Source: an uncultured Verrucomicrobiota bacterium
GTDB taxonomy: Bacteria > Verrucomicrobiota > Verrucomicrobiia > Limisphaerales > UBA9464
Reading direction: 5' to 3'
DNA length: 64,000 bases
NCBI GenBank assembly: GCA_903907995.1
Contig: CAIVQH010000011.1
Coordinates: 1-64,000, forward strand
Shown: one piece after another, positions 9,766-51,004 of the stretch
Layout of the letters: each line of letters begins with the position of its first letter
How positions within the stretch are numbered: the first letter of the stretch is position 1
Notes under the pieces: model-generated
The model's database searches: none
Told to the model about the DNA's origin: nothing
The model's input: the letters and a program-made list of their open reading frames with translations, nothing else
Program-made: the position numbers and the translations under genes

Positions 9766-9782
9766 ATGGTCGGATGTCATAT

Positions 9783-10004
9783 CCGGCCTTATCCCGAAGG
9801 GATTTCATCATTCAGCCCGGCGTTGCGTGACGAAGTCAGGGTAAGGCCGGCAAAAGGAGGTCTGCCCTGAAGGGGCAGAATCAAATTCCGAGATCGACCG
9901 AGGCAACCGCGTTGCGGTTGACATACTTTTCGGAACATTACCCAGGGTAGTCGCTGCACGCCAACCCTGGGCTGATTGATGGAATCCCTTCGGGATTCTG
10001 CCGG
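9783..10004. repeat. 222-bp MITE-like palindromic element
   Basis: The two ends are inverted copies of about 47 bases (9783 onwards, and back from 10004), differing at only a few positions. Each arm contains the small hairpin ATCCCGAAGGGAT. The centre includes a perfect 7-bp stem (TCTGCCC...GGGCAGA) and CCCAGGG/CCCTGGG segments. No open frame or protein similarity is seen, so it looks like a non-autonomous element or a multi-hairpin RNA. It fills most of the gap between the M16 operon and the convergent sialidase gene. Confidence 0.75.
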
Positions 10005-10046
10005 CTTGCTGACCCGATCCCGAATATCGCGGTCCTGTTCCCGAGC

Positions 10047-11072
10047 TCACTTCAGCTGCCAGGGGTCGATCACCACGTATTTGATCTTCTCGCGGCGCCA
10101 CGTGTAGGTCACGTACACCAGCCCGTCACCGGTCTGGATCACCGCCGGGTAGCTGTATTCGCCGTCGTCGTTTTCCAGCGTCAGCTTCCGGGTCCATTGG
10201 GCACCGGTGTCAGAAAGTGCGACGGCGAGCGTATGGCGGGAATCGGTGACCGGATTGTACACCAGCAGCGCCTTGCCTTCCTTGAGCATCACGGCGTCGA
10301 TGCCGCTGTTGGGGTTGGGCAGTTCGGTCCGCCGCATCCGGCTCCACGTCCTGCCGGCATCCACGCTCCAGGTCTCGGTGACGACGTGCTGCTTCGTGCG
10401 GCAGAGGGCCTGCAGCCGGCCATCACTCCACTGCAGGATCGTCGGCTGGATCGCCCCGTAATCCATCGAGGAATTCAAGTCGGCCGTGCGCCACCAATCG
10501 GTGTGATCGTGGTCGCTGAGCTGCAACGTCTCCATGTGGACCCGCCAGCCGGAGTTTTCCTCGCTTGCGCCGCACAGGATGGTCCCGCCGGGCAGCTCAA
10601 TCGGCTTGTTGCGCACCGGGCCGATGTAGCCCGGAGGCAGCCGGCGCGATCGGGACCAGGTACGCCCGCCGTCGTCGGAAATCTTGAGCCGACCCCACCA
10701 TTCCGAGGGGCTTGGACCGACCTTGTAGAAGAGCAGCAGCGGACCGTTCTTCGGCTGGAAGAGCACCGGATTCCAGCAGGCCCACTGCTCATCGCCGTCC
10801 TCGGTGCCGCGCGCGACCTCGACCGGCTTCGTCCAGGTTTTGCCCTCCTCGCGGCTCAGCCAGATCACCACGTCGCGCTGGCGCTCGGCGGTACCACCGA
10901 ACCACGCCGCCACGATCCCATTCTTCGCGTCGCAGATGGTGGAGGCATGCGACGACAGGGTCGGCGGCGGATCGGCCAGGAATCCGGACCGCACGATCGC
11001 GGCCGGGTTTTCCGCCACGAGCGGAAGGGAGGCCAGGACGAAGAGACTCAGCAGAGGACGAAATGCATTCAT
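10047..11072 (-). CDS. Sialidase-like BNR/Asp-box protein
   Basis: 341 residues with a signal peptide (about 1-20). At least three Asp boxes of the S-x-D-x-G-x-T-W kind are visible (SREEGKTW, SDDGGRTW and SVDAGRTW), giving a sialidase-type six-bladed propeller. Secreted homologues remove terminal sialic acids or act on other glycosides. Its upstream neighbour on the same strand encodes a sialate O-acetylesterase, which fits removal of the blocking acetyl groups first. The two are 131 nt apart, separated by a hairpin repeat, so co-transcription is possible but not certain. True sialidase specificity cannot be decided by eye. Confidence 0.82.
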   Translation of the reverse strand: MNAFRPLLSLFVLASLPLVAENPAAIVRSGFLADPPPTLSSHASTICDAKNGIVAAWFGGTAERQRDVVIWLSREEGKTWTKPVEVARGTEDGDEQWACWNPVLFQPKNGPLLLFYKVGPSPSEWWGRLKISDDGGRTWSRSRRLPPGYIGPVRNKPIELPGGTILCGASEENSGWRVHMETLQLSDHDHTDWWRTADLNSSMDYGAIQPTILQWSDGRLQALCRTKQHVVTETWSVDAGRTWSRMRRTELPNPNSGIDAVMLKEGKALLVYNPVTDSRHTLAVALSDTGAQWTRKLTLENDDGEYSYPAVIQTGDGLVYVTYTWRREKIKYVVIDPWQLK

Positions 11073-11104
11073 AATTTAAAAGGCACGAACTGATGGCCTA
11101 TCCC

Positions 11105-11187
11105 GGCGGTGTCCCATCTTAATCTTCTTCTTAATCGCTCGGAGAACTGATTAAGATTAAGCTTACGATTAAGATTAAGACACCGCC
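11105..11187. repeat. GATTA-hexamer hairpin repeat, copy C
   Basis: Bounded by a perfect 9-nt inverted pair, GGCGGTGTC (11105-11113) and GACACCGCC (11179-11187). Inside, the left half reads TCTTAATCTTCTTCTTAATC and the right half is built from GATTAA and CGATTA units. It lies 32 nt upstream of the sialidase start and 16 nt after the esterase stop. Confidence 0.8.
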
Positions 11188-11203
11188 CAGGCTGTCCGTA
11201 CTT

Positions 11204-12790
11204 CTAGTGGATGACCTGCGTGGTCAGATCCCAGCTGTCGGTGCGGAACGGCGAGGCGGGCAACCCGTCAGGATTGGCCAGGTTCACCACCGGATAATCC
11301 GCCCAACCATAGCGGATGGCGACCGGCTTTTCCACCTCGGAGCTGCTGAGTACGACTTGCGACGTCCCGCGGATCTGCGCCGTCGCCGCGTGGAACTTGC
11401 CATCCTCGCCGGCGACCGTGAAGCCGGTCGGGGCAGCGCCGTCGAGGGTCTTCAGACCCTTGCCGACGTGCGTGAAATTCAGGGTCACCTCGCGGCCCTT
11501 CGTAAATTTGCCGGTATAGACCGGGCCGGTGTATTCGACGGCCTGGCCATAGGCCTTGGCGCGGGCCAGCAACGAGAGACGGACGCCGACCGGTCCTTTT
11601 TTGGTCGGATGGATGTCATCCTTGTCGCCCACGTCGGTGATGACAGCCACACCCACGTTCGGGAGCGTCTGGGTCACGTAATTCTGCGCCTCCCGCAGTT
11701 CGGCCCAGCTGGAATCACCCACCTGTGCCGCGATGGTCGCCATGTCACGCTTGCGGTTCATGTCCCACGGCGCGAGCTGCACGGCGTAAAAGTAAAAGTC
11801 GCCCTGACCCCAGTCGCGGCGCCAGTTGGTGATCATGTCTGCAAACAGGCTGCGGTACTGCCACGCGCGGCCGGCATTCGATTCGCCCTGGTACCAGATC
11901 GCGCCCTTGATGCCGTAGGGGATGAGGTTGGCGATCATGCCGTTGTAGAGTTCCGAGGGTTCCCAGGGTGCCCACGGGCGGTTCCCGTTGAACTTCTCAC
12001 CCTTGGCCTCGGCGGCGGCCTTGTCCTGCTCCCACTTTCGGACCGAGTCATGGTAGCTCCGGAGCGAGGCGGGATAGGCCCCGAGGATGTCGCGGTCGTA
12101 CACGTGGTTGTTCTTCAGCACGTCCTCGCTCATCCAAACCTCGGCGGGCGAACCGCCCCAGCTCGTGTGGATGATTCCCACCGGGACATTCTGGCTGCGG
12201 AGCGAAGCCTCCAGGTCACGGCCGAAATAGTAGCCCACGGCGCTGAATCCCGGCGTGGTGTCGGGACCGGACACCGCCCAGGCGTGCTTGGCGTAGTCGA
12301 GGTCGGTCTTGACGATGGAGGAGCGGCGTTTGACGACCGTGAAGAGGCGCAGGTTCGGGTTCGAGCTCGCGGCGATGTCAGGGGCGGACCCGAAGCTGGG
12401 CTTCAGCGGGAACTCCATGTTCGACTGGCCGGAGGCGATCCACACCTCGCCCACCACCACGTCCGTGACCTCCGCCGACTGCTTGGCACCGCTGGCCTTG
12501 AGGGCCATGCCCTTGTTCGTGGCGTGCAGCGGGGCGAGTGCGACCTGCCAGTGGCCGTGCTCGTCGGCGGTCGTCGTGACCTTCTGCTTGCCGAACTCGA
12601 CCGTGACCTTTTCCCCGGCGTCGGCCGTGCCCCACACGGGCAGGCGCCGGCCCTGTTGCAGCACGGCATGGTCGGTGAAAAGCGGATGCAACCGGACTTC
12701 CGCGAAGGAGGTGGAAGCCAGGGCGAAAAACGTGGCAACGGCGGTGCCGATGACGGCACGACGCGACAGCGTGAAAGCGGATGTGGACAT
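11204..12790 (-). CDS. Sialate O-acetylesterase, SGNH family
   Basis: 528 residues from the chosen ATG at 12788-12790. The N-terminus has a twin-arginine-like signal (TLSRRAVIG) followed by a hydrophobic stretch and an alanine-rich cleavage region. Block I of the family, GQSNMEF, contains the nucleophilic Ser at about residue 122, and a D-x-x-H motif (DDIHPTK) supplies the catalytic Asp and His near residue 390. The family removes O-acetyl groups from sialic acids and sometimes from xylans or other glycans. An earlier in-frame ATG at 12862 exists but would put 24 polar residues before the signal. It lies upstream of the sialidase-like gene on the same strand. Confidence 0.87.
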   Translation of the reverse strand: MSTSAFTLSRRAVIGTAVATFFALASTSFAEVRLHPLFTDHAVLQQGRRLPVWGTADAGEKVTVEFGKQKVTTTADEHGHWQVALAPLHATNKGMALKASGAKQSAEVTDVVVGEVWIASGQSNMEFPLKPSFGSAPDIAASSNPNLRLFTVVKRRSSIVKTDLDYAKHAWAVSGPDTTPGFSAVGYYFGRDLEASLRSQNVPVGIIHTSWGGSPAEVWMSEDVLKNNHVYDRDILGAYPASLRSYHDSVRKWEQDKAAAEAKGEKFNGNRPWAPWEPSELYNGMIANLIPYGIKGAIWYQGESNAGRAWQYRSLFADMITNWRRDWGQGDFYFYAVQLAPWDMNRKRDMATIAAQVGDSSWAELREAQNYVTQTLPNVGVAVITDVGDKDDIHPTKKGPVGVRLSLLARAKAYGQAVEYTGPVYTGKFTKGREVTLNFTHVGKGLKTLDGAAPTGFTVAGEDGKFHAATAQIRGTSQVVLSSSEVEKPVAIRYGWADYPVVNLANPDGLPASPFRTDSWDLTTQVIH

Positions 12791-12942
12791 CACCCAGAGC
12801 ATGACTTGAACAGCCGGGGCGCGGTCAACCGGACTTTTTCCGGGAGAAGAAAATTCAGCCATTGCCGGCGGCGAGACACGCTCGCCACCATAGCGGTCGT
12901 GCCGCGAACGACAAGGACCACCACCAACAGGCTTCTTTCCAG

Positions 12943-12961
12943 TTTTCCTGCTTTCCAGATT
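12943..12961 (+). promoter_or_regulatory. 19-nt upstream motif, copy 1
   Basis: TTTTCCTGCTTTCCAGATT, 67 nt before the transglutaminase ATG and in the same orientation. The identical 19 bases occur before the SDR gene (16813-16831, complement) and before fabI (37046-37064). Function is unknown; the constant position suggests a leader or promoter-linked element. Confidence 0.6.
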
Positions 12962-13028
12962 AGATCACCGCCTTGGCTTCCCATGCTTGCGACCGGAGCG
13001 CTCGCTCCCCCACGCTGGGGCGAGCCGG

Positions 13029-13859
13029 ATGAAGCTCTTCATCACCCATCGCACGCACTACCGTTATGCCTCTCCCGTGAAGGAGAGCTTCAACGAGCTG
13101 CGCCTGCAGCCGGTCTCGAACGAGCACCAGACCTGCGAGAGCTTTGAGCTGCGGGTGGAACCGGCGGCCACCATCCGCCGCTATCTGGATTTCTACCGGA
13201 ACTGGGTCCACCACTTCGAGGTGAACCCGCCGCACACCGAGCTGCTCATCGAGTCGCAGACGCGGGTGACGACCAACTCCGCCAACTGGCTCGACCCGGC
13301 CGCGCGTCCCGCCTCCATGAAGCGGATACCCGAACTGGCGCGCATGGAGCGCTGCTTCGACTACCTGCAGGCCAGCAGTTACGTCGAGCTGGAACCGGCA
13401 ATCTGGCGGCTCGCCCTCGACGCCACGGCGGGCGAAACCGACATCTGGCAGGCCGCGCAGGCGCTGAACCGCTTCGTCCACGCCCACATGGACTACCTCC
13501 CCAGGTCCACCGACGCGAAGACACACATGCGTGACGCCCTCGCCGCCCGTGCGGGCGTGTGTCAGGATTTTGCACACATCCTCATCGGCCTGTGCCGCTC
13601 GCTGCAGATTCCGGCGCTCTACGTCAGCGGCTACTTCTGCACGCCGGGCGCACAGGCCAGCCACGCCTGGGCCGAGGTGTTCCTGCCCGAGATCGGCTGG
13701 CGCGCTCTTGATCCGACGCACGCCCGCCAGGCCGATGAGCGGTATGTGAAGATCGCCGTCGGCCGTGATTACGCCGACGTGCCACCCACGAGCGGCAACT
13801 ACAAGGGCACCACCCGGCGCACCATGCTGGTGGATGTGAACGTGCAGCGAATAGATTGA
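13029..13859 (+). CDS. Transglutaminase-like cysteine protease family protein
   Basis: 276 residues. The N-terminal bacterial transglutaminase-like domain ([14 protein letters not shown]) precedes the papain-like core. The catalytic triad is visible: Cys178 in GVCQDFAH, His212 in ASHAWAEVF and Asp228 in LDPTH. There is no signal peptide, so it is cytoplasmic. Bacterial members are protein or peptide hydrolases or cross-linkers, and in many genomes they adjoin circularly permuted ATP-grasp genes; that partner is absent here. The ATG at 13029 is chosen because the family N-terminus begins there, and the longer frame runs back into a palindromic region. It ends 7 nt before thiD, so the two are probably co-transcribed. 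Confidence 0.88.
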
Positions 13860-13866
13860 AATCTTC

Positions 13867-14670
13867 ATGAAACGCCCCCAGCAACCCATCGCCCTCACCA
13901 TCGCCGGCTCCGACAGCGGCGGCGGCGCGGGCATCCAGGCCGATCTCAAGACCTTCGCGGCCCTTGGCGTGCACGGCACCAGCGCGCTCACCTGCCTTAC
14001 TGCGCAGAACCCGCGTGCCGTCACCGCCGTCCACGCCGTTCCTCCGAAGTTTCTGCGTGCCCAGCTCGAGGCGGTGTTCGCCGAGTTGCCGCCCCGCGCG
14101 GTGAAGACCGGGATGCTCTTCAGCGCCCGGCTCATCCGCGAGGTGGCCGGCTTCTGGCGCGCGCTGCCGGCGAAGGGCCGCCCCGCGCTTGTGGTGGACC
14201 CCGTGATGATCGCCACCAGCGGCGCGAAGCTGCTCCAGCCCGCCGCCGTCAAGACGCTCCTGAAGGAGCTGCTGCCGCTGGCCACACTGGTCACCCCGAA
14301 CCTCGACGAGGCCGAGATTCTCGTCGGCCATCCGCTGCGCTCGGTGGACGACGTGCGGATGGCCGCCCTCGAAATCTACCTGCGCTACGGCTGCACCACC
14401 CTGGTCAAGGGCGGCCATCTGCGCGGCGAAAAGCAGGCGACGGATGTTCTCTTCAATGGCCGCGAGGAACTGACCCTGTCCGTGCCCTTCGTACGCGGCG
14501 TCGCGACGCACGGGACCGGGTGCACCTATTCCGCCGCCATCGTCGGCTATCTGGCCCTTGGTCTGGGCCTGTTCGAAGCCGTGGAGCTGGCGAAGAACCA
14601 CATCACGCAGGCCATCACGCAGGCCGTGCAGATCGGGAAGCACACCGCGCTGAACGCCTTCTGGGAGTGA
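13867..14670 (+). CDS. thiD: Hydroxymethylpyrimidine/phosphomethylpyrimidine kinase
   Basis: 267 residues, the normal length for ThiD. It phosphorylates HMP and HMP-P to HMP-PP in thiamine biosynthesis. Recognisable features are the start ([22 protein letters not shown] is the family opening, cut here into two parts: [12 protein letters not shown] and [11 protein letters not shown]), the DPVM segment in the middle and the C-terminal ribokinase-type anion hole with catalytic Asp/Cys region ([12 protein letters not shown]). No other thiamine gene is nearby, and no TPP riboswitch is recognisable upstream. Its only operon neighbour is the transglutaminase-like gene, an association with no obvious metabolic meaning. 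Confidence 0.95.
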
Positions 14671-14734
14671 GCACCACGGGGTGTGTCACTGGATTTCTTG
14701 ACCGTTCCCCGGGCCGGCTGACAGATATAAGCCC

Positions 14735-15775
14735 ATGCAGGTTCTTCCTCAACTGGGTCGCGCGCTTGTCCTCTGCCTGGCTACACTGCTGATGTCGGTC
14801 ACGGGCCGCTCCGAGGAATCTGCGGGCGAGGAGCGCATGGAGACGTTCTTCCGCGTTCGTGGTTATGAGCCGGTCAAGCTGGAGATTACGAAGCAAAACA
14901 AGCTCGTGGCTGCGGGCTTTTTGGAGGACCGAAAAATCAGGTGCCTGGTTGATACAGGCTGGTCGCAATCCAGTGTCAAAGACGCCTGCGTCGGACACGC
15001 CACGGAGCTGACCAATCTTGCGGGCGTCAGCTTTGACGTCTTTGGCACAGCGGTCACTCCGAAACAGGATCATCTGGTTGCGTTGGAAACTCTGAAGCTG
15101 GGGCGCTGCCAGTTTATGGGGCAGCCGATGAATGTCATTGCCGCGACCCACCGGCATTCGAGATTGGACGATGCCCCGACCGGATCGCTGATCCCCCGCG
15201 CCACGAAAGAATCACAGGAATTCAACCTGGTGCTGGGCTGGGATTTTCTGGTCCGCAATTTTACTTTGATCGACTGCAATCGCGCGACCCTCTTTTTTCG
15301 CGGGACCGAGGCACCTGCCAGCCTTCAGACCACGATCAGGGAATCGTTACGACAGAGCGGCTTTAGCGAGATCCCGTTGCAGGAGACGAATCATAATCAT
15401 GGAATCGTGGCCGGCCGGATGAAAGACCGGGAGGTTTTATTCCTGGTGGACACGGGTGGCTTTGCCTCTCTGCTGGATCGGGGGGAAGCGACGCGGCTCG
15501 GACTGGTTGGCCAATCTCTCCACGCCCGAGCCATAGGGGCGGCGGGTGGCAGCAGCGAACTGGATTGGGCACCTACTGACGATATCCAGCTGGCCGGGTA
15601 TCGGGTCGGCAAATTCCGGATCGGAATCTCGGATCTGAGCGCCCTCAACAAGCTTCGTGAGCTGCAGAGGCTGCCGCCCATCATCGGTCTCATCGGCATG
15701 GACCTGTTGTCACGGGATGAGGCCATCATCGACTGCCGGGGCGGACGGATGTTTATGCGCTCTCACGAAAAATAG
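14735..15775 (+). CDS. Secreted protein with two retropepsin-like aspartyl protease domains
   Basis: 346 residues with an N-terminal signal peptide (about 1-27). Two separated catalytic-type motifs are present: LVDTG near residue 70 and FLVDTG near residue 236. Each is followed by a second hydrophobic Gly motif (LVLGWDFL and IGLIGMDLL), the typical second half of a retropepsin-like fold. Retropepsins work as dimers of one-DTG units, so a tandem could form an intramolecular pseudo-dimer. The protein is probably periplasmic; the substrate is unknown. Base composition is less GC-rich than in neighbouring genes. It starts 64 nt after thiD. Confidence 0.8.
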   Translation: MQVLPQLGRALVLCLATLLMSVTGRSEESAGEERMETFFRVRGYEPVKLEITKQNKLVAAGFLEDRKIRCLVDTGWSQSSVKDACVGHATELTNLAGVSFDVFGTAVTPKQDHLVALETLKLGRCQFMGQPMNVIAATHRHSRLDDAPTGSLIPRATKESQEFNLVLGWDFLVRNFTLIDCNRATLFFRGTEAPASLQTTIRESLRQSGFSEIPLQETNHNHGIVAGRMKDREVLFLVDTGGFASLLDRGEATRLGLVGQSLHARAIGAAGGSSELDWAPTDDIQLAGYRVGKFRIGISDLSALNKLRELQRLPPIIGLIGMDLLSRDEAIIDCRGGRMFMRSHEK

Positions 15776-15886
15776 GCCGCTCTAAAAATACCGGAGCCGC
15801 GATTTCCGTCGATTGCGAAGGGCTCGCCTGACGATAGGGAGCAACCGTCGGATGTAAGCTCCCTTCCCGGGGTGAGGGGGAAGCGC

Positions 15887-15952
15887 CCGGCCACAGGGCC
15901 GGAGACTCTCGGAGTCAAGAAAGCACACAACCGGGCGTCCGCTCTTGCGGAC
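15887..15952. repeat. Three short hairpins between convergent genes
   Basis: CCGGCCACAGGGCCGG (15887-15902), GACTCTCGGAGTC (15904-15916) and GTCCGC-TCTT-GCGGAC (15937-15952) are three good stem-loops in the 231-bp gap between the retropepsin-like gene and the convergent SDR gene. None is followed by a T-run, so a Rho-independent terminator is not shown. A role in transcript ends is plausible. Confidence 0.45.
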
Positions 15953-16006
15953 ACAGATTTCATAGAACCGTGATAGGACGCCTCTGAGCGCACCTGGCCA
16001 CGGCAC

Positions 16007-16756
16007 TCACGCGATCCGCATCGTCAGCCCGCCGTCGATCGTGATCGATTCGCCGGTGAGGTAGTCGTTCTTCACCAGCTCCAGGATCACGCTGGCGACC
16101 TGCTCCGGTGTGCCTTCGCGGTGCAGCGGGATGCGCTGGTCGAGATTCAGCTTCTTTTGCGCGTCGGTCATCGCCGCGTGGAAGGCCGTCCGGATGACGC
16201 CTGGCGCGACGCAGTTCACGCGGATGTTGTCGTCGGCGAACTCACGCGCCAGCGCCCGGGTGAATTGCGGGATCGCGCCTTTCACCACCTGGTAGGCGAC
16301 ATTGGTGACCACGCCCCGAATGCCCGCCGTCGAGGAGATGAGGACGATGGCGCCCTCCCGCTTCGGCTTCATGTGCGGGATGGCGGCGCGGCAAAGGTAA
16401 AAGATGGCGTGGATGTGCGTGTCAAACGCACCGTGCCACTGCTCCGGCGTCAGCTCGTGCAGTTTTCCGTTCACCGGGCCGCCGGCCGAGTGAACGAGCA
16501 CATCGAGACCGCCCAGCCGCTGTACCGTCTCCTCCACGAGGCGCGTCGCTTCAGCCGGTTTCCCGCAGTCCGCGAGGATGAGTTCGCAACGGCGTCCCAG
16601 CGCCTCGATGGCCAGTCTGGTGGCATGCGCGCCGGCGTCCTCACGACGGCCGTTGATGGCCACATCCGCGCCGTCCCGCGCGAGCGCGAGTGCGGTGGCC
16701 GCGCCGATGCCCTTGGTGCCGCCGGTGACGAGTGCAACCTTGCCGGTAAGTTTCAT
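16007..16756 (-). CDS. Short-chain dehydrogenase/reductase, FabG-like
   Basis: 249 residues of classical SDR type. The NAD(P)-binding motif TGGTKGIG is at residues 11-18, an NSAG-like HSAGG at 89-93, catalytic Ser at 141/142, and the YxxxK pair is Tyr155/Lys159. The Arg-containing INGRRED after the second strand favours NADPH. The overall sequence is close to 3-oxoacyl-ACP reductases, but many SDRs of this form reduce other substrates, and no fatty-acid gene is adjacent. The 19-nt upstream motif found before fabI is also before this gene, which hints at shared control. Confidence 0.88.
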   Translation of the reverse strand: MKLTGKVALVTGGTKGIGAATALALARDGADVAINGRREDAGAHATRLAIEALGRRCELILADCGKPAEATRLVEETVQRLGGLDVLVHSAGGPVNGKLHELTPEQWHGAFDTHIHAIFYLCRAAIPHMKPKREGAIVLISSTAGIRGVVTNVAYQVVKGAIPQFTRALAREFADDNIRVNCVAPGVIRTAFHAAMTDAQKKLNLDQRIPLHREGTPEQVASVILELVKNDYLTGESITIDGGLTMRIA

Positions 16757-16812
16757 GGATCAGCCGAGGGTGGCAGGCCAGCGGGGCCAATTCAAACACA
16801 AGGGAATGAGCC

Positions 16813-16831
16813 AATCTGGAAAGCAGGAAAA
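16813..16831 (-). promoter_or_regulatory. 19-nt upstream motif, copy 2
   Basis: In complement the bases read TTTTCCTGCTTTCCAGATT, identical to copies 1 and 3. Its 3' end is 56 nt before the SDR start codon, in the sense orientation. With the fabI copy it shares a longer match of about 27 bases. Confidence 0.6.
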
Positions 16832-16869
16832 CAGGAACCAAAGCTCCGATGAGGAGTAGCGCGAACCCG

Positions 16870-19425
16870 TCATCGCCTTCTTAACCGCAGCGCATTGCCG
16901 ACCACCACGACGTCGCTCAGGCCCATTGCCAGCGCGCACACGACCGGGCTGAGAAAGCCCAGCGCCGCGAGCGGGATGGCGGCGGCGTTGTAGAAGAAGG
17001 CCCAGAACAGGTTCTGCCGGATGACCCGCAAGGTTGCCTGTGCCAGGTCGAGCGCGACGGGGATGGCGGTCAGATCGGCCCGCAGCAGCACAATGTCCGC
17101 AGCCTCGCGCGCCACGTCCGTCGCCTGCGCGACCGCGATGCCCAGGTCGGCCTGGGCGAGCGCCGGTCCGTCGTTCAGTCCGTCGCCGATGAAGGCCACC
17201 CGCTGGCCCTTCGCCTGCAAACGTTGCAGGTGCTCGGCCTTCTGTTCCGGACGCACTTCCGCCAGCACGTTGGTCATGGGAATCCCCGCGAGCCGGGCCA
17301 TCGCCTCGGCCGTCTGCCGGTTGTCGCCGGTAAGCAGGTAAACCTGCCGGCCACCTTGCGCCAGTTGCGCGACGACTTCCCGTGCCTGCGGCTTCAGTTC
17401 ATCGCGCAGGGCAAAGGCGCCCCAAACCATGCGGTCCGAAACCAAGAGCGAGACGGTCGCCCCTTCGGCCAGCCAATGATCCAAGAACGGCTGCGTGGCG
17501 GCGAGGTTCACGCCTTCATTGCGAAACCACGCCAACGAGCCCACGCGCAGCTCGTGGCCCCACCACTTTGCGGAAACGCCGGCTCCCCGAAGTTCCTGCC
17601 AATCCTCCAGCGGGAGATCGCCCGGCGCGAGCGCGGCCAGGCTGCGGCTCAGCGGATGCTGCGAACGCCGGGCCAGCGACGCCACCAGCTCCGCCAACGG
17701 GACCGTGCGTTGGTCCGCCGCCCGGTGATCTTCCGTGGCGACCACCTTGGGCCGGCCTTCGGTCAGCGTGCCGGTCTTGTCGAAAACGAGCGTCGTGATG
17801 TTGCCCGACTTTTCCAGCGCCTGCGCGTCCCGGATGAGGATGCCCCGGCGCGCGGCGGCATTCACTCCGGCCATGAGCGCCACGGGCGTGGCGAGCCCCA
17901 TCGCACACGGGCACGCGACAATGAGCACGGCGCATGCGATGCCGACCGCCGCCGAGAGCGGCGAGGCGGGCAAGTGCGAATGCCAGAGGAACGCCGCCAC
18001 CGCATCATGCACCGCCTGGGCGGAGGCGGGGGCCAATCCCCACCACAGCGCCGCCGCGATGGCGATGAGCAGGACCACCGGCACAAAAATCGAGCTGATG
18101 CGGTCTGCGAGCCGCTGGATGTTCGCCCGGCTCGACTGCGCGCGCTGCACGGCGGCGATGATGTGCGCCAGCGCCGTGGCCTCGCCGGTCGCGGTCACGC
18201 GGGCGATGAGCCGACCCGTCTGGTTCACGGTGCCGGCGAAGAGCTTGGCTCCGGCTGTCTTTTCGACAGGCAATGGTTCGCCGGTGAGCATGGCCTCGTC
18301 CACGACGGAGGAGCCGTCGGCCACTTCCGCATCCACCGGCACGCGGTCACCGGGCTTGAGGACAATCCGGTCGCCGCTCCGGAGTTCGGTCACGGGCACT
18401 TCGGTCTCGGCTTCCGCTGCGCCGGCAATTCCGGACTGCGCCGGCAGCCGTCGCGCCGTCGCGGGAGCCAGCTCGAACAGCGCGCGCAGGGAGGCCCCCG
18501 CCTTGGAGCTCATCCGCGCCTCAAACCAGTGGCCGACACTGACGAGCGTGAGGATGGAGGCCGCCTCCATGAAATAAAGGTGCCCCGGCTGCCCGGTGAG
18601 CAGCGCCCACAGGCTGTAGAGAAACGCCGTGGTCGAGCCGAGCGCAACCAGCGTGTCCATGTTGGCCTGCCGGACGCGCAACTGCCGCCAAGCGCCCCGG
18701 TAAAACCCCGCGCCGACGACCACTTGCACCGGCAGCGCCAAGACCAGGCCGACCCAGTGGAACACGGGGTTCATCCCCAGTCCTAGGAACCACTCGGCGA
18801 CGATGAATGTGAGGGTGACCGGCACTCCCAGCCACACGGCCCGCGACCACGCTATTTCAGCGGAGGAAGTTTTCTCTGCTGGGGCCGTCGCCGTTTTGGC
18901 CACCGGTATGGCGCGATAACCGGCCTGCGCCACGGCCGCCACGATGGCCGCTGTGTCGGCGCTCGCGGTCGGCTGCCAAGTCACGGAAGCGCGGCCGCCA
19001 GAGAGATCCACCTGCGCGCTGGCGATGCCGGGGACCGTTTGGAGCGCCTGTTGCACGTGCTGCGCGCAATTGGCGCAGGTCATCCCCTCGATGCGAAATT
19101 CCGTGGCCGTGGCCGAGGCTTTCGCCGCCGGCAGGTGCGCCTCGTAGCCGGCGCCCTTCACCGAGCGGATCAGGGCTTCGACATCCGGGGTGACGCCGGC
19201 TTGCCACGTCACGGAGGCGCGGGACTGCGCCAGTTCAACTTGCACGGCGTCCACACCACCGACCTTGCGCAGGGCAGTGGTGACATGTTGCGCGCAACTC
19301 CCGCAATCCATGCCCTCGATGGTCAGCTCGGTGCGCGACCCGGCAGCCACGCCGGGAGGCGTGTTCAGAGGCGCACCTGGCGGCTGGGTCGGACGCGGAC
19401 GGAACCGGATTGAGGCAGAAGCCAT
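16870..19425 (-). CDS. copA: Copper-translocating P-type ATPase with two metal-binding domains
   Basis: 851 residues from the ATG at 19423-19425. Two heavy-metal domains occupy the N-terminus, with CxxC pairs at Cys41/Cys44 (GMDCGSC) and Cys117/Cys120 (GMTCANC). Eight membrane spans follow. The ion-binding CPC is at residues 505-507, the phosphorylated Asp549 is in DKTGTLTEG, and the hinge GDGLNDGPAL is near the C-terminus. These features identify a P1B-1 ATPase that exports Cu(I) from the cytoplasm. A longer frame begins at 19548 but adds an Arg/Pro-rich stretch before the domains. No copper regulator or chaperone gene is adjacent; a perfect dyad lies upstream. It is divergent from a small conserved gene. 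Confidence 0.93.
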   Translation of the reverse strand: MASASIRFRPRPTQPPGAPLNTPPGVAAGSRTELTIEGMDCGSCAQHVTTALRKVGGVDAVQVELAQSRASVTWQAGVTPDVEALIRSVKGAGYEAHLPAAKASATATEFRIEGMTCANCAQHVQQALQTVPGIASAQVDLSGGRASVTWQPTASADTAAIVAAVAQAGYRAIPVAKTATAPAEKTSSAEIAWSRAVWLGVPVTLTFIVAEWFLGLGMNPVFHWVGLVLALPVQVVVGAGFYRGAWRQLRVRQANMDTLVALGSTTAFLYSLWALLTGQPGHLYFMEAASILTLVSVGHWFEARMSSKAGASLRALFELAPATARRLPAQSGIAGAAEAETEVPVTELRSGDRIVLKPGDRVPVDAEVADGSSVVDEAMLTGEPLPVEKTAGAKLFAGTVNQTGRLIARVTATGEATALAHIIAAVQRAQSSRANIQRLADRISSIFVPVVLLIAIAAALWWGLAPASAQAVHDAVAAFLWHSHLPASPLSAAVGIACAVLIVACPCAMGLATPVALMAGVNAAARRGILIRDAQALEKSGNITTLVFDKTGTLTEGRPKVVATEDHRAADQRTVPLAELVASLARRSQHPLSRSLAALAPGDLPLEDWQELRGAGVSAKWWGHELRVGSLAWFRNEGVNLAATQPFLDHWLAEGATVSLLVSDRMVWGAFALRDELKPQAREVVAQLAQGGRQVYLLTGDNRQTAEAMARLAGIPMTNVLAEVRPEQKAEHLQRLQAKGQRVAFIGDGLNDGPALAQADLGIAVAQATDVAREAADIVLLRADLTAIPVALDLAQATLRVIRQNLFWAFFYNAAAIPLAALGFLSPVVCALAMGLSDVVVVGNALRLRRR

Positions 19426-19481
19426 CGGGTGCAGGTTCGGTCTCCGGGCGCCGGCGGGCAAATCGTTTGCGGGCGAAGGCC

Positions 19482-19500
19482 CACCGCGGATTGCGCGGTG
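19482..19500. promoter_or_regulatory. Perfect dyad in the copA divergent promoter region
   Basis: CACCGCG-GATTG-CGCGGTG is a 7-bp perfect inverted repeat with a 5-base spacer, 56 nt upstream of the copA start and 55 nt upstream of the divergent small gene. It could be an operator for a metal-responsive repressor, but no family consensus is recognised. Confidence 0.35.
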
Positions 19501-19555
19501 CGACTTGTGCCGGGGATGAAGTCGCGCCACGTTCCCGGCGTCACACAATAAGCCT

Positions 19556-19825
19556 ATGACGCGCCAGCAAGTGCTCGACCTCTACTTCATGGACGCCCGC
19601 TGCAAGCTCATCGAGCTCGCGGCGTTCCTCGACCGCGTGGACCGGGGCACCGGTGACGCCGACTTCCGCCTCAAAGCCTTCCGCGACGCCATGAAACACC
19701 TCGCCGACGGCAATCCGCAGCGCGCCGAGGCCGTGCTGCTGGCCTTCAGCGACCCGACGCCCGAACCGATCGCCAAGGCTCCCGGCAAAGGCGCGGTCGG
19801 CGCGTGGCCGGGACAACCGGCCTGA
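19556..19825 (+). CDS. Small conserved-looking hypothetical protein
   Basis: 89 residues, no signal peptide or membrane span. The first 65 residues look like an all-helical domain (LDLYFMDARCKLIELAAFLDR, shown here as LDLYFMDARCKLIEL then AAFLDRVDR, and later DAMKHLADGNPQRAEAVLLAF), followed by a Pro/Gly-rich tail. It is divergently placed from copA and 19 nt before the next gene, with which it is probably co-transcribed. I do not recognise a characterised family. The strong GC-type codon bias and clean spacing argue that it is real. Confidence 0.65.
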   Translation: MTRQQVLDLYFMDARCKLIELAAFLDRVDRGTGDADFRLKAFRDAMKHLADGNPQRAEAVLLAFSDPTPEPIAKAPGKGAVGAWPGQPA

Positions 19826-45132: not shown

Positions 45133-45326
45133 ACGGCAACCATACACCATCGGTGGAGATGAAGGTGATGGGTCACGCTGGACCGCCGTCACGAACGCCG
45201 TCAATCGCGGAGCGGATACGCCTTTAGTGGTAGAAACAAGGAGTTGCCGGCAAAAGGATGAACCGTTTTGCTATGTGCGGCGTCGTAAGTGGCGATCGGT
45301 TGCTAAAAATCACGCCTAATCATTGC

Positions 45327-47132
45327 ATGAACCCGTTCCGTTTCAACGCCTTCTGCCGGATTCTCACCTTCACTGGGGCGCTGCTGGCGGGCTTCGCTGC
45401 CGCCGCGAAATCGCAGGAAGTGCCGAACTTCAACCTGCTCGACCTGCGCGGCCGTAACCACGAACTGCACCGCGCCGAGGGCAAGGCGGTGGTGCTGTTC
45501 TTCACGGGCAATGGCTGTCCGGTCGCGCGGCAGAGCGTGGAGAAGCTGCAGGAACTGCGGGGACATTTTGGCAAGGACGTGACCTTCTGGATCGTGAACA
45601 CCTATGCGGGCGATTCGCTGACCGACTGCATCAAGGAATTCACCGAGTTCGACATGTCGCCGCTCACCTACCTGCGCGATCCCAAGCAGGGCGTGGCCCT
45701 GGCGCTCGGTGTCGAGCGCACGGCCGAGACGGTCGCCATCCGCACGGACGACTGGAAGGTGGTGTATCAGGGTGCGATTGACGACCAGCTCAGCGAAGGC
45801 GCGCAGCGCAAGGACCCGCAGAACAAATTTCTGGAAACGGCGCTGACGGAATTCCTCGCGGGCAAGGCGGTTACCACCGCCCACTCCCAGGCGCATGGCT
45901 GCCGCATCGCCTTTGCGCACGTGGGCGACGAGCAGGGGCAGGTCTCCTATGCCAAGCATGTCGCGCCGCTGCTGCAACAGAAGTGCGTCGAATGCCATCG
46001 CGAGGGCGGCATCGGGCCCTGGCCGATGAGCAGCCATGCCAAGGTGAGCAACTACGCGGCGATGATCGAGGAGGTGCTGCTGACCGGCCAGATGACGCCC
46101 TGGCACGCCGATCCCACCTACGGCCATTGGGCCAACGACCGCTCCATGACCGCCGAGGAGACGCAGACGCTCATCCGCTGGGTGGCCGCCGGCGCGCCGC
46201 GCGGCGATGGGGCCGACCCGCTCGCGGAACCCCTGGCCGCGCTGCCGGACTGGTCGCTCGGCAAACCGGACTTCGTGGTGAAGCTGCCGCAGCCCGAGTC
46301 GGTGCCTGCCACCGGCGTGCTCGATTACCGGCACATCACCGTGGAGCTCCCCACCACCAACGACCTGTGGCTCGCGGCGCTCGACGTGAAGCCGGGCAAC
46401 CGGCGCGTCGTGCACCATGTGATCGTCCGGGCCAAATGGAAGGGCGGTCCGGATGACGGCTCGGGCCGGGGTATCAACATTGTCGGCTGGGCTCCGGGCA
46501 TGTCACTGACCCGGTTTCCTGCGGGCACGGGCAAGTTCATTCCGCACGGGGCGAAGCTCGACCTGGAGATGCATTACACGACCATGGGCACCCCGCAGAC
46601 CGACCAGACGGAGGTTGCCTTCTATCTGCTGCCCGAGAAGCCGGAGCGCGTGCTCTTCACCCATGCGGCGTTGCAGGATGACCTCAACATTTCGCCGGGC
46701 GCGGACGAGTCGCGTGATGCGGCCATCTACGGCTTCAAGAAACCCGCCACCATTTACACCCTCATGCCGCACATGCACCTGCGGGGAAAATGGATGCGCT
46801 TCGACCTCCTGCAACCGGATGGCAAGCGCGAGACGCTGCTGAATGTGCCCCGCTACGACTTCAACTGGCAGACCGTCTATCACCTCGCCCAACCGCGCCA
46901 CGTGCCGGCGGGCGCTTGGCTGGTGGTCACGGGCGGGTTCGACAATTCTAAGGGCAACCCGGCCAATCCGGAGCCGACCAAGCGTGTCCATTTCGGCCTG
47001 CAATCTTGGGACGAGATGTTCATCGGCTTCCTCGACGTCGCGGATGATCCCGAACCGGCGAAAACCTCCTACGCCACCGGCACGACCTCCAACTCTGCCG
47101 ACACTTCCGCGAACACCGTCGTGCGCCGCTGA
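45327..47132 (+). CDS. Redoxin - cytochrome c - PHM-like copper monooxygenase fusion
   Basis: 601 residues with a signal peptide (about 1-30). An alkyl-hydroperoxide-reductase/thioredoxin-like redoxin comes first, with a single Cys64 (NGCPVAR). A cytochrome c motif follows at Cys220/Cys223/His224 (CVECH). The C-terminal half has the copper ligands of peptidylglycine/dopamine-type monooxygenases: His363-His364 for one copper, and His482, His484 and probably Met564 (SWDEMFIG) for the other. The enzyme would be periplasmic, receiving electrons through the haem and possibly thiol domains. The substrate is unknown. Homologous fusions occur in this superphylum. The ATG at 45327 is chosen because it begins the signal peptide. 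Confidence 0.85.
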   Translation: MNPFRFNAFCRILTFTGALLAGFAAAAKSQEVPNFNLLDLRGRNHELHRAEGKAVVLFFTGNGCPVARQSVEKLQELRGHFGKDVTFWIVNTYAGDSLTDCIKEFTEFDMSPLTYLRDPKQGVALALGVERTAETVAIRTDDWKVVYQGAIDDQLSEGAQRKDPQNKFLETALTEFLAGKAVTTAHSQAHGCRIAFAHVGDEQGQVSYAKHVAPLLQQKCVECHREGGIGPWPMSSHAKVSNYAAMIEEVLLTGQMTPWHADPTYGHWANDRSMTAEETQTLIRWVAAGAPRGDGADPLAEPLAALPDWSLGKPDFVVKLPQPESVPATGVLDYRHITVELPTTNDLWLAALDVKPGNRRVVHHVIVRAKWKGGPDDGSGRGINIVGWAPGMSLTRFPAGTGKFIPHGAKLDLEMHYTTMGTPQTDQTEVAFYLLPEKPERVLFTHAALQDDLNISPGADESRDAAIYGFKKPATIYTLMPHMHLRGKWMRFDLLQPDGKRETLLNVPRYDFNWQTVYHLAQPRHVPAGAWLVVTGGFDNSKGNPANPEPTKRVHFGLQSWDEMFIGFLDVADDPEPAKTSYATGTTSNSADTSANTVVRR

Positions 47133-47197: not shown

Positions 47198-47227
47198 TTG
47201 ACTTAACAACTACCAAGGTAGTATTAC
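47198..47227 (+). promoter_or_regulatory. Predicted promoter of the BlaI-type gene
   Basis: A -35 box TTGACT (47198-47203) is followed 18 nt later by a -10-like TATTAC (47222-47227). Transcription would start near 47233, which rules out the GTG at 47229 as start codon and favours the ATG at 47241, leaving a very short leader. Confidence 0.55.
47209..47222. promoter_or_regulatory. BlaI-type operator inside the promoter spacer
   Basis: ACTACCAAGGTAGT has 6-bp inverted arms (ACTACC/GGTAGT) separated by two bases. BlaI/MecI repressors bind sequences of the form TACNNNNGTA, and this fits. It lies between the -35 and -10 boxes, so bound repressor would block RNA polymerase. Confidence 0.65.
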
Positions 47228-47240
47228 CGTGGTCGTTCTC

Positions 47241-47627
47241 ATGAAATCCCCCTCTCATCGTCTGGGCGACCTGCAGTTGCGCATCCTGCAGTCGCTCTGG
47301 GCCCGTCCCGACGCCTCGGTTGCCGAGGTCCATGCCGAACTGAAACCGGAGCGCGACCTGGCCCACACCACCATCGCCACGATGCTGCGCAAGATGGAGG
47401 CGCGCGGACTGGTCACGCATCGCGAGGAGGGGCGCAGCTTTCTCTACCGCGCGAAGGTCGCCGCCGACGAGGTCAGTCGCAGCGTGGGTCAGCACCTGGT
47501 CGAGCGGCTCTTCGAGGGCAGTCTGACTGATGCGGTAAGTCATCTGCTCACAACCCGTGAGGTGAGCCGCCAGGAACTCGACGAGCTGGAGAAACTTATC
47601 CAGCAGGCGAAACGGAGGACCAAATGA
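47241..47627 (+). CDS. BlaI/MecI family transcriptional repressor
   Basis: 128 residues. The winged helix-turn-helix of the BlaI/MecI/CopY family is clear (LGDLQLRILQSLW, then AEVHAEL, TTIATMLRKMEARGLVTHREEGRSFLYRA), followed by a helical dimerisation region. Repressors of this family are inactivated when a membrane M56-type protease (BlaR1/MecR1) is activated. Here the next gene, whose ATG overlaps this stop as ATGA, encodes an M56 protease, so the pair is a classical module. The ATG at 47241 is chosen from the position of the predicted promoter; the frame opens a little earlier with GTG. Confidence 0.93.
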   Translation: MKSPSHRLGDLQLRILQSLWARPDASVAEVHAELKPERDLAHTTIATMLRKMEARGLVTHREEGRSFLYRAKVAADEVSRSVGQHLVERLFEGSLTDAVSHLLTTREVSRQELDELEKLIQQAKRRTK

Positions 47628-50600
47628 CCCCGACCCTTTCCTTCTGGCTGCCGTTGCTGGGCCGGTTGGCGACGGAAGCACTGCTGCTGGTCGCGCTGGC
47701 CACGGCGGCGCAACGGTTCATCACGTCGCCCCGCGCGCGGGGTACGCTCTGGCAGGCGGTGCTGCTGGGTGTAGCCCTGGTGTGGCTCGCCGAACTCGGT
47801 GGGGCACGCGGGCAGATCGCGCGCTGGTGGCCGCAGCCGCACGAGCCGCGACAGATGGTGGTCACGCTGGCCGATCCGCCGGCAATCCTGGTGCCGCTTG
47901 CCACCACCGGGTCCGGGTCGGTGACACTTTTTCCCGCGACTGAGGAACCGGCGGCCGAGAAGACGGTCTGGTGGCCGCTCCAGCTGTGGATTGCGGGCTT
48001 GTCGGCGCTGGCTTTCCGGGCACTCGGGCTGCGGCTCTGGCTCGGGTTCGCGGCGCGCCGGCGGGGTCGCGTGACCACTGATGCCCTGTTGCTTGCCCGG
48101 GTGGAAAACCTCAGGCGCCGTGTCGGTTTGCGCCGTGTGCGTGTGCTTACGTGGCCCGGGCTGCGCAGTCCCATCGCGTTCGGGGCCTTGCGCCCGATCA
48201 TTGCGCTACCGGCGGATTTTGCCGGGCGCTTCAGCCCGGAGGCGCAGGACGCGATGCTGGCGCACGAGCTGGCGCACCTGGCGGCCAGTGATCCGTTCTG
48301 GCTCGCGATTGCGGACGCCGTGCTGGCGCTCTCATGGTGGCATCCCGCTGTGTGGTGGGCGCGGCGACAACTGCGGGCGGCGAGCGAGGCGAGCGCGGAC
48401 GAGGCGAGCGCGCTGGTGCCGGGCGGTCGCGTGGCCCTGGCCGAATCGCTGGTCAACTTCGGCCGCGAACTGGCCGCGCCCGGCTGGACGCGCGGTCTGG
48501 GCGTCGCGGGTGACGGCCTGAAATCACAGCTCGCCCGGCGCGTGACAGCGCTGTTGCACCCCGCCGGCGAATGGCGAGCGGTGCGGCCGGCCCCGTTATG
48601 GCTGGCCCGGGGCGCGGCGCTGATCACGACGATGATATTCATGGCCATACCTTGGCCGGGTGCCAGCGGACCGACTTTCGCGGAAGTCCTGCTGGCGGCT
48701 TCCGCTGCTGAACCACCGCCGGCAGGTTTGGCTCCATCCGATTCACCGGCTGAGCCGCCCTCGGCGCAATCCGCAGCCCCCCACCAGCCGGTTCTGGTCA
48801 ATTCTCCTGCGCGGCCGGCACCAAGCTTCCACGCGACGGCAGACAGTTTGGAAAATCCGGCGCACTTGAGCTATGAGGCGGCACCCACCCGGTCCTCATC
48901 CAGCGTGGACCATCCCGGCCTCGCGCTCACTCCGCCTCCCTCCGTGGGATTTCTGCCGGACGCGGATCCGAAATCCCCCCACCGGCAATATGTGGAAACG
49001 GCCCGTCAATTCAGGCTGCAAGGCGAACAGATTGCGGCGTTCAGCGAGCGCATCCGACCGTTCATGCCGGCGGGCGAGACCAATATCCAGGTGGCCCTTT
49101 GCGGATTTTGCGCAGCCAACGGGGTGAAATTTCCGGAGCATGGCTATGATTCCTCGGGCAAGCCCGTCTGGCCCAGCCAGCAGCCGGCCATCTTCTTCGA
49201 CGACCATACGGGCGTGATCCAGATGCGCGCCAACACGGAAGATCTCGACCGGATCGAAAGGGCGATCCAAATGCTCAACCTGCCTTCGGCGCCGACGGCT
49301 AAGCTGCCACCCGGCAAATCGGGGCCGGAAGAGAATCCAACGATGCAGGCGCGTTACCAGTTGGCATTGCAGGCCGTGAAGCAGGCCGATCTGGATGCGG
49401 TCCCCATCTTCGAAAAGTACGGGAAAGACAGTGCCGAAGCCGCCGAGGCGACCGCGCGCTATCAACGGGCCAAGGAAAAGGCCCAACTCCTTAAAACGGC
49501 CAATGACGCGTTCAAGGGATTGGAAGTTCTGGGAAAGTCGTATGAGCCGGTGCAGCCGCAGACGCCGGCGGACGGAACCGGACGGAATGACCTGCTCGCC
49601 AAGGTGGAGGGAACCACGTCCGAGACGACGAACGCAGCGACCCTCTACACCCGCCAATTCAATTTTTCGGGGGAGCAATTGGCGGCGTTCAAGGAACACA
49701 TCCGCCAGTTCCTGCCCGCTGGGGAGACCAATTTCGTGCGGGTCGGCGAGAACGGCCTGACGGCCGCTCAGTTTGGCGCGCGCGTCTTCTGCGTCACGAA
49801 CGGAGTGGACATGCAGATGGGTCTTACTTTGCCGACGCAACAGTCGAATAAGGCCGTGTTTTTCAACGACCGCAGTGGAGTGCTCTTTGTACGGGCCACC
49901 TTGGAGGACCTCGATCGGATTGAGCGGGCCCTCCAAGCGGTGGGCATCCCGCTCGCCGAGGCCGACGAGATTCGCGCCGGCCAGATGAAGACACTGAAGG
50001 CCAGTGAGGCCCGTCTCGCCGAGTTGCGTACGCGCTACCATGACCGGCATCCCAAGGTGCTGGAAGAACTGGCCTCGCAGGCGCAAATACGGGCTTCACT
50101 GCGCAACATGGAACTCAACGGACGAACCGCCGCCACCAATGGTGTATTGACCGGCGCTTCGACGAATTCCCGCCGGCAGGTCGTGCTTGAAATTCAGTTC
50201 GCTGAAGTCACGGAGAGTGGTTCCGACGATCTCGGACTGGACTGGATCTTCGGCCAGTCGCCGACGAACAACCCCGCTTTGCAGAGTGGTCCGGCGACCA
50301 ACCTGCTAACCGAGCCCGGCTCGCCCCACGGGCAGGCCCTGCGGGTCGATCTGCTTCGCACGGTGGGTCAGGCCGCCACCCTGACGGCGGACCAGTACGT
50401 GGCCTTGCGCGAACGTTTGCTAAGCCGGAGCCGCGTGGATTTCCTCGCTGCGCCCAAGGTCATCACGCAGTCCGGCCGGGAGGCGCAGGTCTCGGTTGGC
50501 GACGAAAAAACCATTGTCACCGGCATGCTAGAACAGCCGGCCACGACGACCAACCAGGCCGGGATCCATTATCAGACCGAGAAAGTTACTGTTGGGCCGA

Positions 50601-51004
50601 AGGTGGACATCATCCCTGAATTGGAAGGGACAGAAATTCGGTTGGGCATTGTGGCGACGGTCACGGAATTTCTGGGCTACGACCAGCCAGTCGCATCGCC
50701 CGGGCGCAAGCCGGCGAAAGCGGTGAAAGGCGTGGAGCCATTGCCGCGCATGCGGGTGCGCGCGTTGCATGCTGATTCGGTATCCAAGTCGGGCGAAACG
50801 GTCGCGCTCCGCGGGCCGCTGGTGGCCGATACCGTGCTCACGAAGGACAAAGTGCCGGTGCTGGGGGATATTCCGCTGCTGGGCCGGCTCTTTCGCAGCG
50901 AAGGCCGGATGACGCAGCGCAAGCGGCTCTACGTGTTCATCACCCCGGTGGAGGTCACGGCCACGGGTGAGCGCGTGGAAGCGCAGGCCGTTCCGGGGCG
51001 GTAG
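47624..51004 (+). CDS. M56 (BlaR1-type) metallopeptidase fused to a secretin-like region
   Basis: 1126 residues. The first 350 residues are the BlaR1/M56 membrane part: several spans and the zinc motif H214-E-L-A-H218, with a last span near 331-347. A Pro/Ser/Ala-rich linker (about 350-450) follows. Then come two related modules of about 100 residues (about 458-553 and 674-776), each with ARQF/TRQF at the start, AIFFDD/AVFFND, and LDRIERA at the end, which look like secretin N-domains; a charged helical stretch (about 785-840); and a secretin-type C-terminal domain (about 849-1110) with VPVLGDIPLLGRLF and YVFITP. No penicillin-binding motif is present. Normally secretins sit in the outer membrane and M56 proteins in the inner membrane, so the topology is puzzling. 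Translationally coupled to the BlaI-type gene. Confidence 0.85.
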   Translation: MTPTLSFWLPLLGRLATEALLLVALATAAQRFITSPRARGTLWQAVLLGVALVWLAELGGARGQIARWWPQPHEPRQMVVTLADPPAILVPLATTGSGSVTLFPATEEPAAEKTVWWPLQLWIAGLSALAFRALGLRLWLGFAARRRGRVTTDALLLARVENLRRRVGLRRVRVLTWPGLRSPIAFGALRPIIALPADFAGRFSPEAQDAMLAHELAHLAASDPFWLAIADAVLALSWWHPAVWWARRQLRAASEASADEASALVPGGRVALAESLVNFGRELAAPGWTRGLGVAGDGLKSQLARRVTALLHPAGEWRAVRPAPLWLARGAALITTMIFMAIPWPGASGPTFAEVLLAASAAEPPPAGLAPSDSPAEPPSAQSAAPHQPVLVNSPARPAPSFHATADSLENPAHLSYEAAPTRSSSSVDHPGLALTPPPSVGFLPDADPKSPHRQYVETARQFRLQGEQIAAFSERIRPFMPAGETNIQVALCGFCAANGVKFPEHGYDSSGKPVWPSQQPAIFFDDHTGVIQMRANTEDLDRIERAIQMLNLPSAPTAKLPPGKSGPEENPTMQARYQLALQAVKQADLDAVPIFEKYGKDSAEAAEATARYQRAKEKAQLLKTANDAFKGLEVLGKSYEPVQPQTPADGTGRNDLLAKVEGTTSETTNAATLYTRQFNFSGEQLAAFKEHIRQFLPAGETNFVRVGENGLTAAQFGARVFCVTNGVDMQMGLTLPTQQSNKAVFFNDRSGVLFVRATLEDLDRIERALQAVGIPLAEADEIRAGQMKTLKASEARLAELRTRYHDRHPKVLEELASQAQIRASLRNMELNGRTAATNGVLTGASTNSRRQVVLEIQFAEVTESGSDDLGLDWIFGQSPTNNPALQSGPATNLLTEPGSPHGQALRVDLLRTVGQAATLTADQYVALRERLLSRSRVDFLAAPKVITQSGREAQVSVGDEKTIVTGMLEQPATTTNQAGIHYQTEKVTVGPKVDIIPELEGTEIRLGIVATVTEFLGYDQPVASPGRKPAKAVKGVEPLPRMRVRALHADSVSKSGETVALRGPLVADTVLTKDKVPVLGDIPLLGRLFRSEGRMTQRKRLYVFITPVEVTATGERVEAQAVPGR

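Follow-up and report, generated by a model that had tools for sequence, protein, structure and literature searches.

A BlaR1-type M56 protease fused to a secretin and paired with an apparently self-regulating BlaI repressor in Verrucomicrobiota

BlaR1-type proteases are known chiefly as antibiotic sensors, and how cells know that a two-membrane machine has been correctly built is poorly understood. Here, we analyzed a 64,000-nucleotide stretch of DNA from an uncultured Verrucomicrobiota bacterium (contig CAIVQH010000011.1 of assembly GCA_903907995.1, hereafter the window), in which a BlaR1-type M56 protease is joined in one chain to a secretin and encoded directly downstream of a BlaI repressor. 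In BlaR1, the zinc ligands and their neighbors are H201, E202, H205, D210, E242, D246, and R294, mutation of Tyr261 abolishes induction in B. licheniformis, and a Phe is near-invariant at P1′ of the site at which BlaI and MecI are cleaved (PMC9834060). The role of the insertion loop of secretins has been described (PMC6532946), and the outer-membrane location of the Amuc_1098 PilQ has been shown for A. muciniphila (PMC4960237). Our search of the open-access literature, outside of which lay subscription papers and domain-architecture databases, found no description of BlaR1 or peptidase M56 joined to a secretin domain. As our best explanation, we tentatively put forward an autoregulated BlaI-M56 proteolytic switch, the periplasmic half of which would be a captured secretin that imitates an envelope machine and signals the condition of that machine.

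The fusion gene is a single uninterrupted reading frame on the forward strand (47624-51004, ATG to stop) encoding 1,126 amino acids (aa). Its immediate upstream gene is blaI, which it overlaps by four bases and, as read from the DNA, the unit is these two genes behind one operator. The earlier note, made without database searches, described an M56-secretin fusion coupled to BlaI, and profile searches agree. Pfam finds Peptidase_M56 (PF05569) at residues 34-279 (E 3.9e-24, 85.8 bits against a cut-off of 31), Secretin (PF00263) at residues 934-1108 (E 1.3e-23, 83.8 bits against a cut-off of 27.5, profile positions 4-165 of 169) and, in the adjoining gene, Penicillinase_R (PF03965, E 2.2e-29). 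The motifs named in that note are all in place (HELAH at residues 214-218, the secretin signature VPVLGDIPLLGRLF at 1077-1090, and YVFITP), and the lack of a penicillin-binding motif holds as well, since a Pfam scan of the fusion finds no penicillin-binding or transpeptidase domain. In an AlphaFold model based on 36 sequences (mean predicted local distance difference test score (pLDDT) of 74, with values above 85 in most of the M56 half and in a large part of the barrel), three early transmembrane (TM) helices are followed by the protease, the last TM helix, a linker, module 1, a helical hairpin, module 2, another hairpin, and the barrel. Charges are distributed as expected if the protease is cytoplasmic and the C-terminal part periplasmic, and the predicted topology places the secretin half in the periplasm beyond a long flexible linker. 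A secretin-type N-terminal signal peptide is absent; the chain starts with the M56 TM helices.

The two-part protein recurs in many of the 50 genomes of the same family that were searched. The complete unit, blaI plus M56-secretin gene, is present at 15 same-family loci, the closest relative being 89% identical and from another assembly, and further cases in a wider collection come nearly all from metagenome-assembled Verrucomicrobiota. Across the order, the BlaI of this clade is encoded in 57 of 293 genomes (37 of 118 genera), almost always in a single copy. Outside the family, about 30 complete downstream genes were assessed with a profile of our own, of which 19 encode a clear secretin domain and seven lack one, while in a few it is weak or split; the survey of Verrucomicrobiota for this domain order that had been proposed in the earlier note yields these 19 loci in addition to the 15 in the family. 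By Pfam, M56 is found in 15/15 family and 29/29 other members, and Secretin in 14/15 and 22/29, respectively. The ratio of nonsynonymous to synonymous substitution rates (dN/dS) between the window and a close relative is 0.23 for the M56 part, 0.15 for the secretin part, and 0.009 for BlaI (compared with locus L040), values by which the main parts, including the secretin half, are under purifying selection. For module 2 it is 0.52, with too few changes for a conclusion.

An assembly error or a frameshift joining two genes, which the earlier note had named as a ground for abandoning the fusion together with the lack of a significant secretin match in the C-terminal half, is given practically no weight, and the same applies to a decaying gene. 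A join error is excluded by dozens of independent assemblies with the same gene order and by purifying selection, which also refute decay for the window copy, and the secretin match is highly significant. What speaks for decay is the apparently decayed state of two relatives, L047 (5463-6836), with a secretin end and a piece of M56 but no blaI, and L205 (1176-2021), a broken fusion in which blaI is followed by a secretin fragment.

The protease half is of BlaR1 type and keeps every zinc and catalytic residue. The N-terminal half of the fusion (AlphaFold model) superposes on S. aureus BlaR1 (8exs) with a Z score of 16.9 over 245 residues and a root-mean-square deviation (rmsd) of 3.3. The seven BlaR1 residues listed above correspond, in the same order, to H214, E215, H218, D223, E255, D259, and R306 in the fusion, all of which are kept in the clade, and the zinc-site residues H214, E215, H218, and E255 are invariant in its alignments. 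The equivalent of Tyr261 is Leu272 in 54/54 distinct clade pairs, and a Tyr is kept at this position in the M56 paralogues of the same genome and in distant M56-secretin fusions. The NCBIfam equivalog model for BlaR1 reaches 43.7 bits against a cut-off of 400, with only residues 120-261 matched. BlaI, which matches MecI/BlaI structures (E 8.2e-10 for MecI), is 75-97% identical across the 15 family loci. Its presumed cleavage site is His-Leu in 54/54 distinct clade pairs, with Leu106 throughout the clade in place of the P1′ Phe. The paired signature, His-Leu in BlaI and Leu272 in M56, fits a dedicated protease-repressor pair. The window's genome encodes three M56 proteins, each beside a BlaI. 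Its other M56 genes, L037 2934-5591 (-) and L038 2456-3553 (-), are both blaI-adjacent; of their two products, one ends in a long coiled-coil-like region and the other has almost no C-terminal part.

The near-invariant operator ahead of blaI, ACTACCnnGGTAGT-ATTACCnnGGTCGT, consists of two adjoining 14-bp dyads 3′ of a TTGAC box, and a candidate -10 element (TAGTAT/TATTAC) falls inside it. With up to three mismatches, the operator was found in 17 of 49 family genomes, at one site each and always directly upstream of the clade blaI; a reversed control pattern gave no match in the same 49 genomes. Across the order it likewise lies ahead of blaI, as it does in Planctomycetota relatives with M56 proteins that bear different C-terminal parts, and it was not found in 387 other genomes of the phylum, nearly all of other orders. 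Because the operator was detected once per genome and solely ahead of blaI, the unit appears to regulate only itself, in line with the self-regulation of the operon suggested in the earlier note. At L189 (~1000-1075), a different palindromic operator, GACAGTTGTAGTACTACAACTGTC, lies upstream of a like blaI, and the relative L192 retains the usual one.

The C-terminal half, from residue ~672, superposes on GspD and PilQ structures with a Z score near 9 and a high overall rmsd, which probably reflects differing domain angles. The NCBIfam GspD model TIGR02517 covers residues 849-1111. The fusion scores far below the NCBIfam cut-offs for both GspD and PilQ, and the equivalog for the Amuc_1098-type PilQ gives 69.6 bits against 750, with the best stretch at residues 1055-1119. 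The evidence is weaker for the two secretin-N-like modules proposed previously. They are homologues with 48% identity across ~100 residues, module 2, which is modeled better than the weakly modeled module 1, aligns in structure comparison with the barrel-proximal N domain of solved secretins, and the Secretin_N matches of relatives reach an E-value of 7e-9, but in the fusion itself Secretin_N (E 0.0014, residues 745-776) stays below the Pfam cut-off.

The window's genome has three secretins: the fusion, an Amuc_1098-type PilQ, and a GspD-like protein. The PilQ (G000:C8, L036 3485-6238) has a long non-M56 N-terminal part and is, with 44% barrel identity, the nearest secretin to the fusion in that genome. 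In a secretin tree, the PilQ group stands apart from the window's fusion group. The fusion secretins do not form one clade in this tree, in which several deep forks are open, and may stem from one capture or several. Relatives found on plasmids are ordinary secretins only. Separately, a related genome (L260, G010:C8:134000-153900) encodes at 9449-19765 (-) a giant secretin, at least 3,438 aa long, in which 33 Secretin_N domains lie ahead of a single barrel. Frames of ~3,900-4,300 aa with a secretin match occur in many family genomes, and no such giant secretin is in the PF00263 list of the window's own genome.

Across the order, the same chassis (BlaI, operator, and M56) carries a complete, a degraded, or no secretin. 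The smallest complete family relative modeled (L045, 703 aa) consists of M56, a short linker, and a barrel, and the longest relatives extend to 1,800 aa. Other parts found on the chassis are a SecDF P1 head with ExbD and TPR (L102), a SecDF P1 head (L223), SLBB (L197), LysM (L209), and Poly_export without secretin (L210), whereas L198 and L200 have Secretin_N modules only; a distant fusion lineage has YscJ/FliF (L113). L141 (1157-8776) is a run of adjacent genes for blaI, a 1,750-aa M56-secretin fusion, and two further secretins, which suggests that the secretin part was duplicated locally in that distant lineage of fusions. Alternatively, the secretin fold might only be a scaffold for an external ligand (peptide, polysaccharide, or antibiotic), like the penicillin-binding domain of BlaR1, with no tie to secretin assembly left. 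In favor of such a scaffold, the branches of many fusion secretins are longer than those of PilQ, many have lost the insertion loop, and one relative has the LysM just mentioned. We regard it as unlikely, however, given the conservation of the lip residues (EFxGY) and of the barrel strands and the fact that most modules recruited in other members are pieces of machines, not domains of the kind that typically bind ligands.

The sequence VPVLGDIPLLGRLF is what we take to be the amphipathic insertion loop of secretin structures. Barrel and loop are complete in the window fusion and in most same-family full-length relatives, and the combination of an intact loop with a long periplasmic linker makes it possible that the protein spans the envelope. 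It could then be a true secretin, an outer-membrane channel tied covalently to an inner-membrane protease, with the secretin as effector of the operon and cleavage of BlaI as feedback on the amount of channel. In keeping with a spanning channel, no other operator was found in the genome, leaving the fusion as the only predicted product besides BlaI, and the linker is long enough to reach across the periplasm, longer members having additional helical hairpins and modules. We nevertheless consider this channel somewhat unlikely. Of 47 clade members, 31 retain the EFxGY motif, 13 of them with no insertion loop recognizable by pattern, so outer-membrane insertion appears not to be a conserved requirement across the clade. 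Other members have no secretin on the same chassis, no conserved secretion genes lie nearby, and an N domain is missing altogether from the smallest complete member. The earlier note had offered an envelope-spanning sensor or the sensing of oligomers: spanning is compatible with the periplasmic half, linker, and loop of the window protein, but not readily with the clade members in which the loop is missing.

Cleavage by signal peptidase after the last TM helix could also free the secretin for the outer membrane, leaving the M56 part to regulate. This helix could serve as a signal sequence, and BlaR1 itself is cut by signal peptidase (PMC9834060), but inspection by eye of 15 aligned members revealed no signal-peptidase motif that is both conserved and suitably spaced, and a Pro-rich PWPG stretch follows the helix. 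Such a processed polyprotein is, in our view, improbable.

Because the chassis is constant, the periplasmic half is exchanged among envelope-machine parts, and the outer-membrane loop is often dispensable, we favor a sensor over a channel. With modest confidence, a machine-mimicking sensor is more likely than a simple channel, although in the window's own lineage a channel is possible. In the mechanism that we propose, BlaI would shut off its two-gene operon, and the secretin half would probe envelope conditions through assembly, either among its own copies or with the secretin ring of type IV pili (PilQ of the Amuc_1098 type). Should this assembly be missing or perturbed, the protease would receive the change via the last TM helix and the first extracellular loop and would cut BlaI at His105-Leu106 and derepress the operon, so that more of the sensor/secretin would be made. 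The periplasmic half would thus be a machine mimic serving as sensor, with channel activity secondary.

Several points weigh against this sensor. The window protein retains every secretin feature, including the insertion loop, and may truly form a channel. By analogy with BlaR1, the Leu at the Tyr261 equivalent may mean that catalysis or its control differs. Gene context is unconserved and offers no neighborhood tie between the unit and pili, and no correlation can be drawn between the fusion and PilQ, since most family genomes have PilQ-type secretins whether or not they carry the unit. In addition, searches of the genus with a shortened operator, or with TTGAC plus one dyad, found no extra site above chance, and BlaI targets with weaker operators would escape them.

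Extended to the whole order, the same idea would describe a family of M56 sensor-proteases that use copied periplasmic parts to monitor trans-envelope machines and report to a self-regulating BlaI, which is possible, but which we hold with more reserve. On that reading, the window's fusion would be, to our knowledge, the first case of an inner-membrane protease linked covalently to a secretin ring of the outer membrane. A conserved branch in which a secretin or other machine parts replace the antibiotic sensor suggests that the protease chassis monitors secretion and pilus machinery, and one protein holding both a machine part and a signaling protease would make quality sensing of envelope machines directly testable. 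New here are the conservation of the operator, the order-wide distribution, the exchange of the periplasmic half, and the paired changes in BlaI and protease.

The features of the locus are listed in the table. Hairpin 573-634 resembles the coiled hairpins of adaptor proteins (Z ~8-9), a resemblance that may be a common shape only and from which no relationship was taken. The upstream neighbor (45258-47132, +), which is common only to the window and its closest relative, encodes an AhpC/TSA-type thioredoxin domain and weakly matched cytochrome-like and copper-monooxygenase-like parts (Pfam). Apart from antisense shadow open reading frames (ORFs), no gene neighborhood is conserved across genera, short shared stretches being found in close relatives only, and no RNA element or tRNA was detected near the locus.

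Table. Coordinates of the blaI/M56-secretin unit in the window (residues are those of the fusion unless BlaI is named)
Feature	Position	Strand	Basis or remark
TTGACT, -35-like element of the blaI promoter	47198..47203	+	TTGAC-N-operator conserved ahead of blaI at almost all loci of the clade
Double operator ACTACCAAGGTAGT-ATTACCGTGGTCGT, a pair of adjoining 14-bp pseudo-palindromes	47209..47236	+	conserved ahead of clade blaI
blaI repressor	47241..47627	+	probable start ATG 47241 (alignment with relatives); ORF-finder start GTG 47229
Presumed BlaI scissile pair His105-Leu106 (numbered from GTG 47229)	47541..47546	+	aligned with MecI Asn-Phe
M56-secretin fusion gene, 1,126 aa	47624..51004	+	reading frame; Pfam and NCBIfam matches
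BlaR1-type membrane part and M56 protease, residues 1-320	47624..48583	+	Pfam PF05569; AlphaFold model
TM1 5-30, TM2 36-59, TM3 117-146, protease 147-320	within 47624..48583	+	
HELAH zinc motif, residues 214-218	48263..48277	+	invariant in clade alignments
Last TM helix, residues 322-341, toward periplasm	48587..48646	+	hydropathy peak 324-342; model helix 322-341
Linker, residues 342-453, low-complexity, mostly disordered	48647..48982	+	pLDDT <50 over 368-467
Secretin-N-like module 1, residues 454-551, low-confidence fold	48983..49276	+	48% identity to module 2; pLDDT ~40-70
Helical hairpin, residues 573-634	49340..49525	+	AlphaFold model
Secretin-N-like module 2, residues 675-772	49646..49939	+	Secretin_N E 0.0014; aligns with barrel to GspD/PilQ
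Second helical hairpin, residues 780-839	49961..50140	+	AlphaFold model
Secretin barrel domain, residues 850-1111	50171..50956	+	PF00263; GspD TIGR02517; GspD/PilQ by sequence and fold
TEFLGYD lip motif, residues 1014-1020	50663..50683	+	common to PilQ (Amuc_1098) secretins of the phylum
VPVLGDIPLLGRLF, presumed amphipathic helical (outer-membrane insertion) loop, residues 1077-1090	50852..50893	+	sequence

Compared with described systems, the unit resembles BlaR1/MecR1-BlaI/MecI in membrane topology, the HExxH...E site, the second-shell Asp/Arg, the BlaI partner, the operator ahead of blaI, and the fold. It differs in that the fusion has a secretin and no penicillin-binding sensor, and in that the pair has Leu for Tyr261, a presumed cut at His-Leu rather than Asn-Phe, and no separate target gene found. 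The Psp response registers secretins mislocalized at the inner membrane (PMC5596341); a response to wrongly placed secretins is what it would have in common with the unit, whereas its proteins are unrelated and its sensor contains no secretin. Secretins form outer-membrane rings of 12-15 subunits. Unlike GspD and PilQ, the fusion has no signal peptide of its own and starts with M56 TM helices, yet it shares with these secretins the full barrel, the adjacent, putative N-like module, and the presumed insertion loop. The Amuc_1098-type PilQ of the same genome is free of M56, is encoded in a pilus-like operon, and belongs to a separate group of the tree, but the lip motif TEF(L/V/I)GYD is common to PilQ and the fusion.

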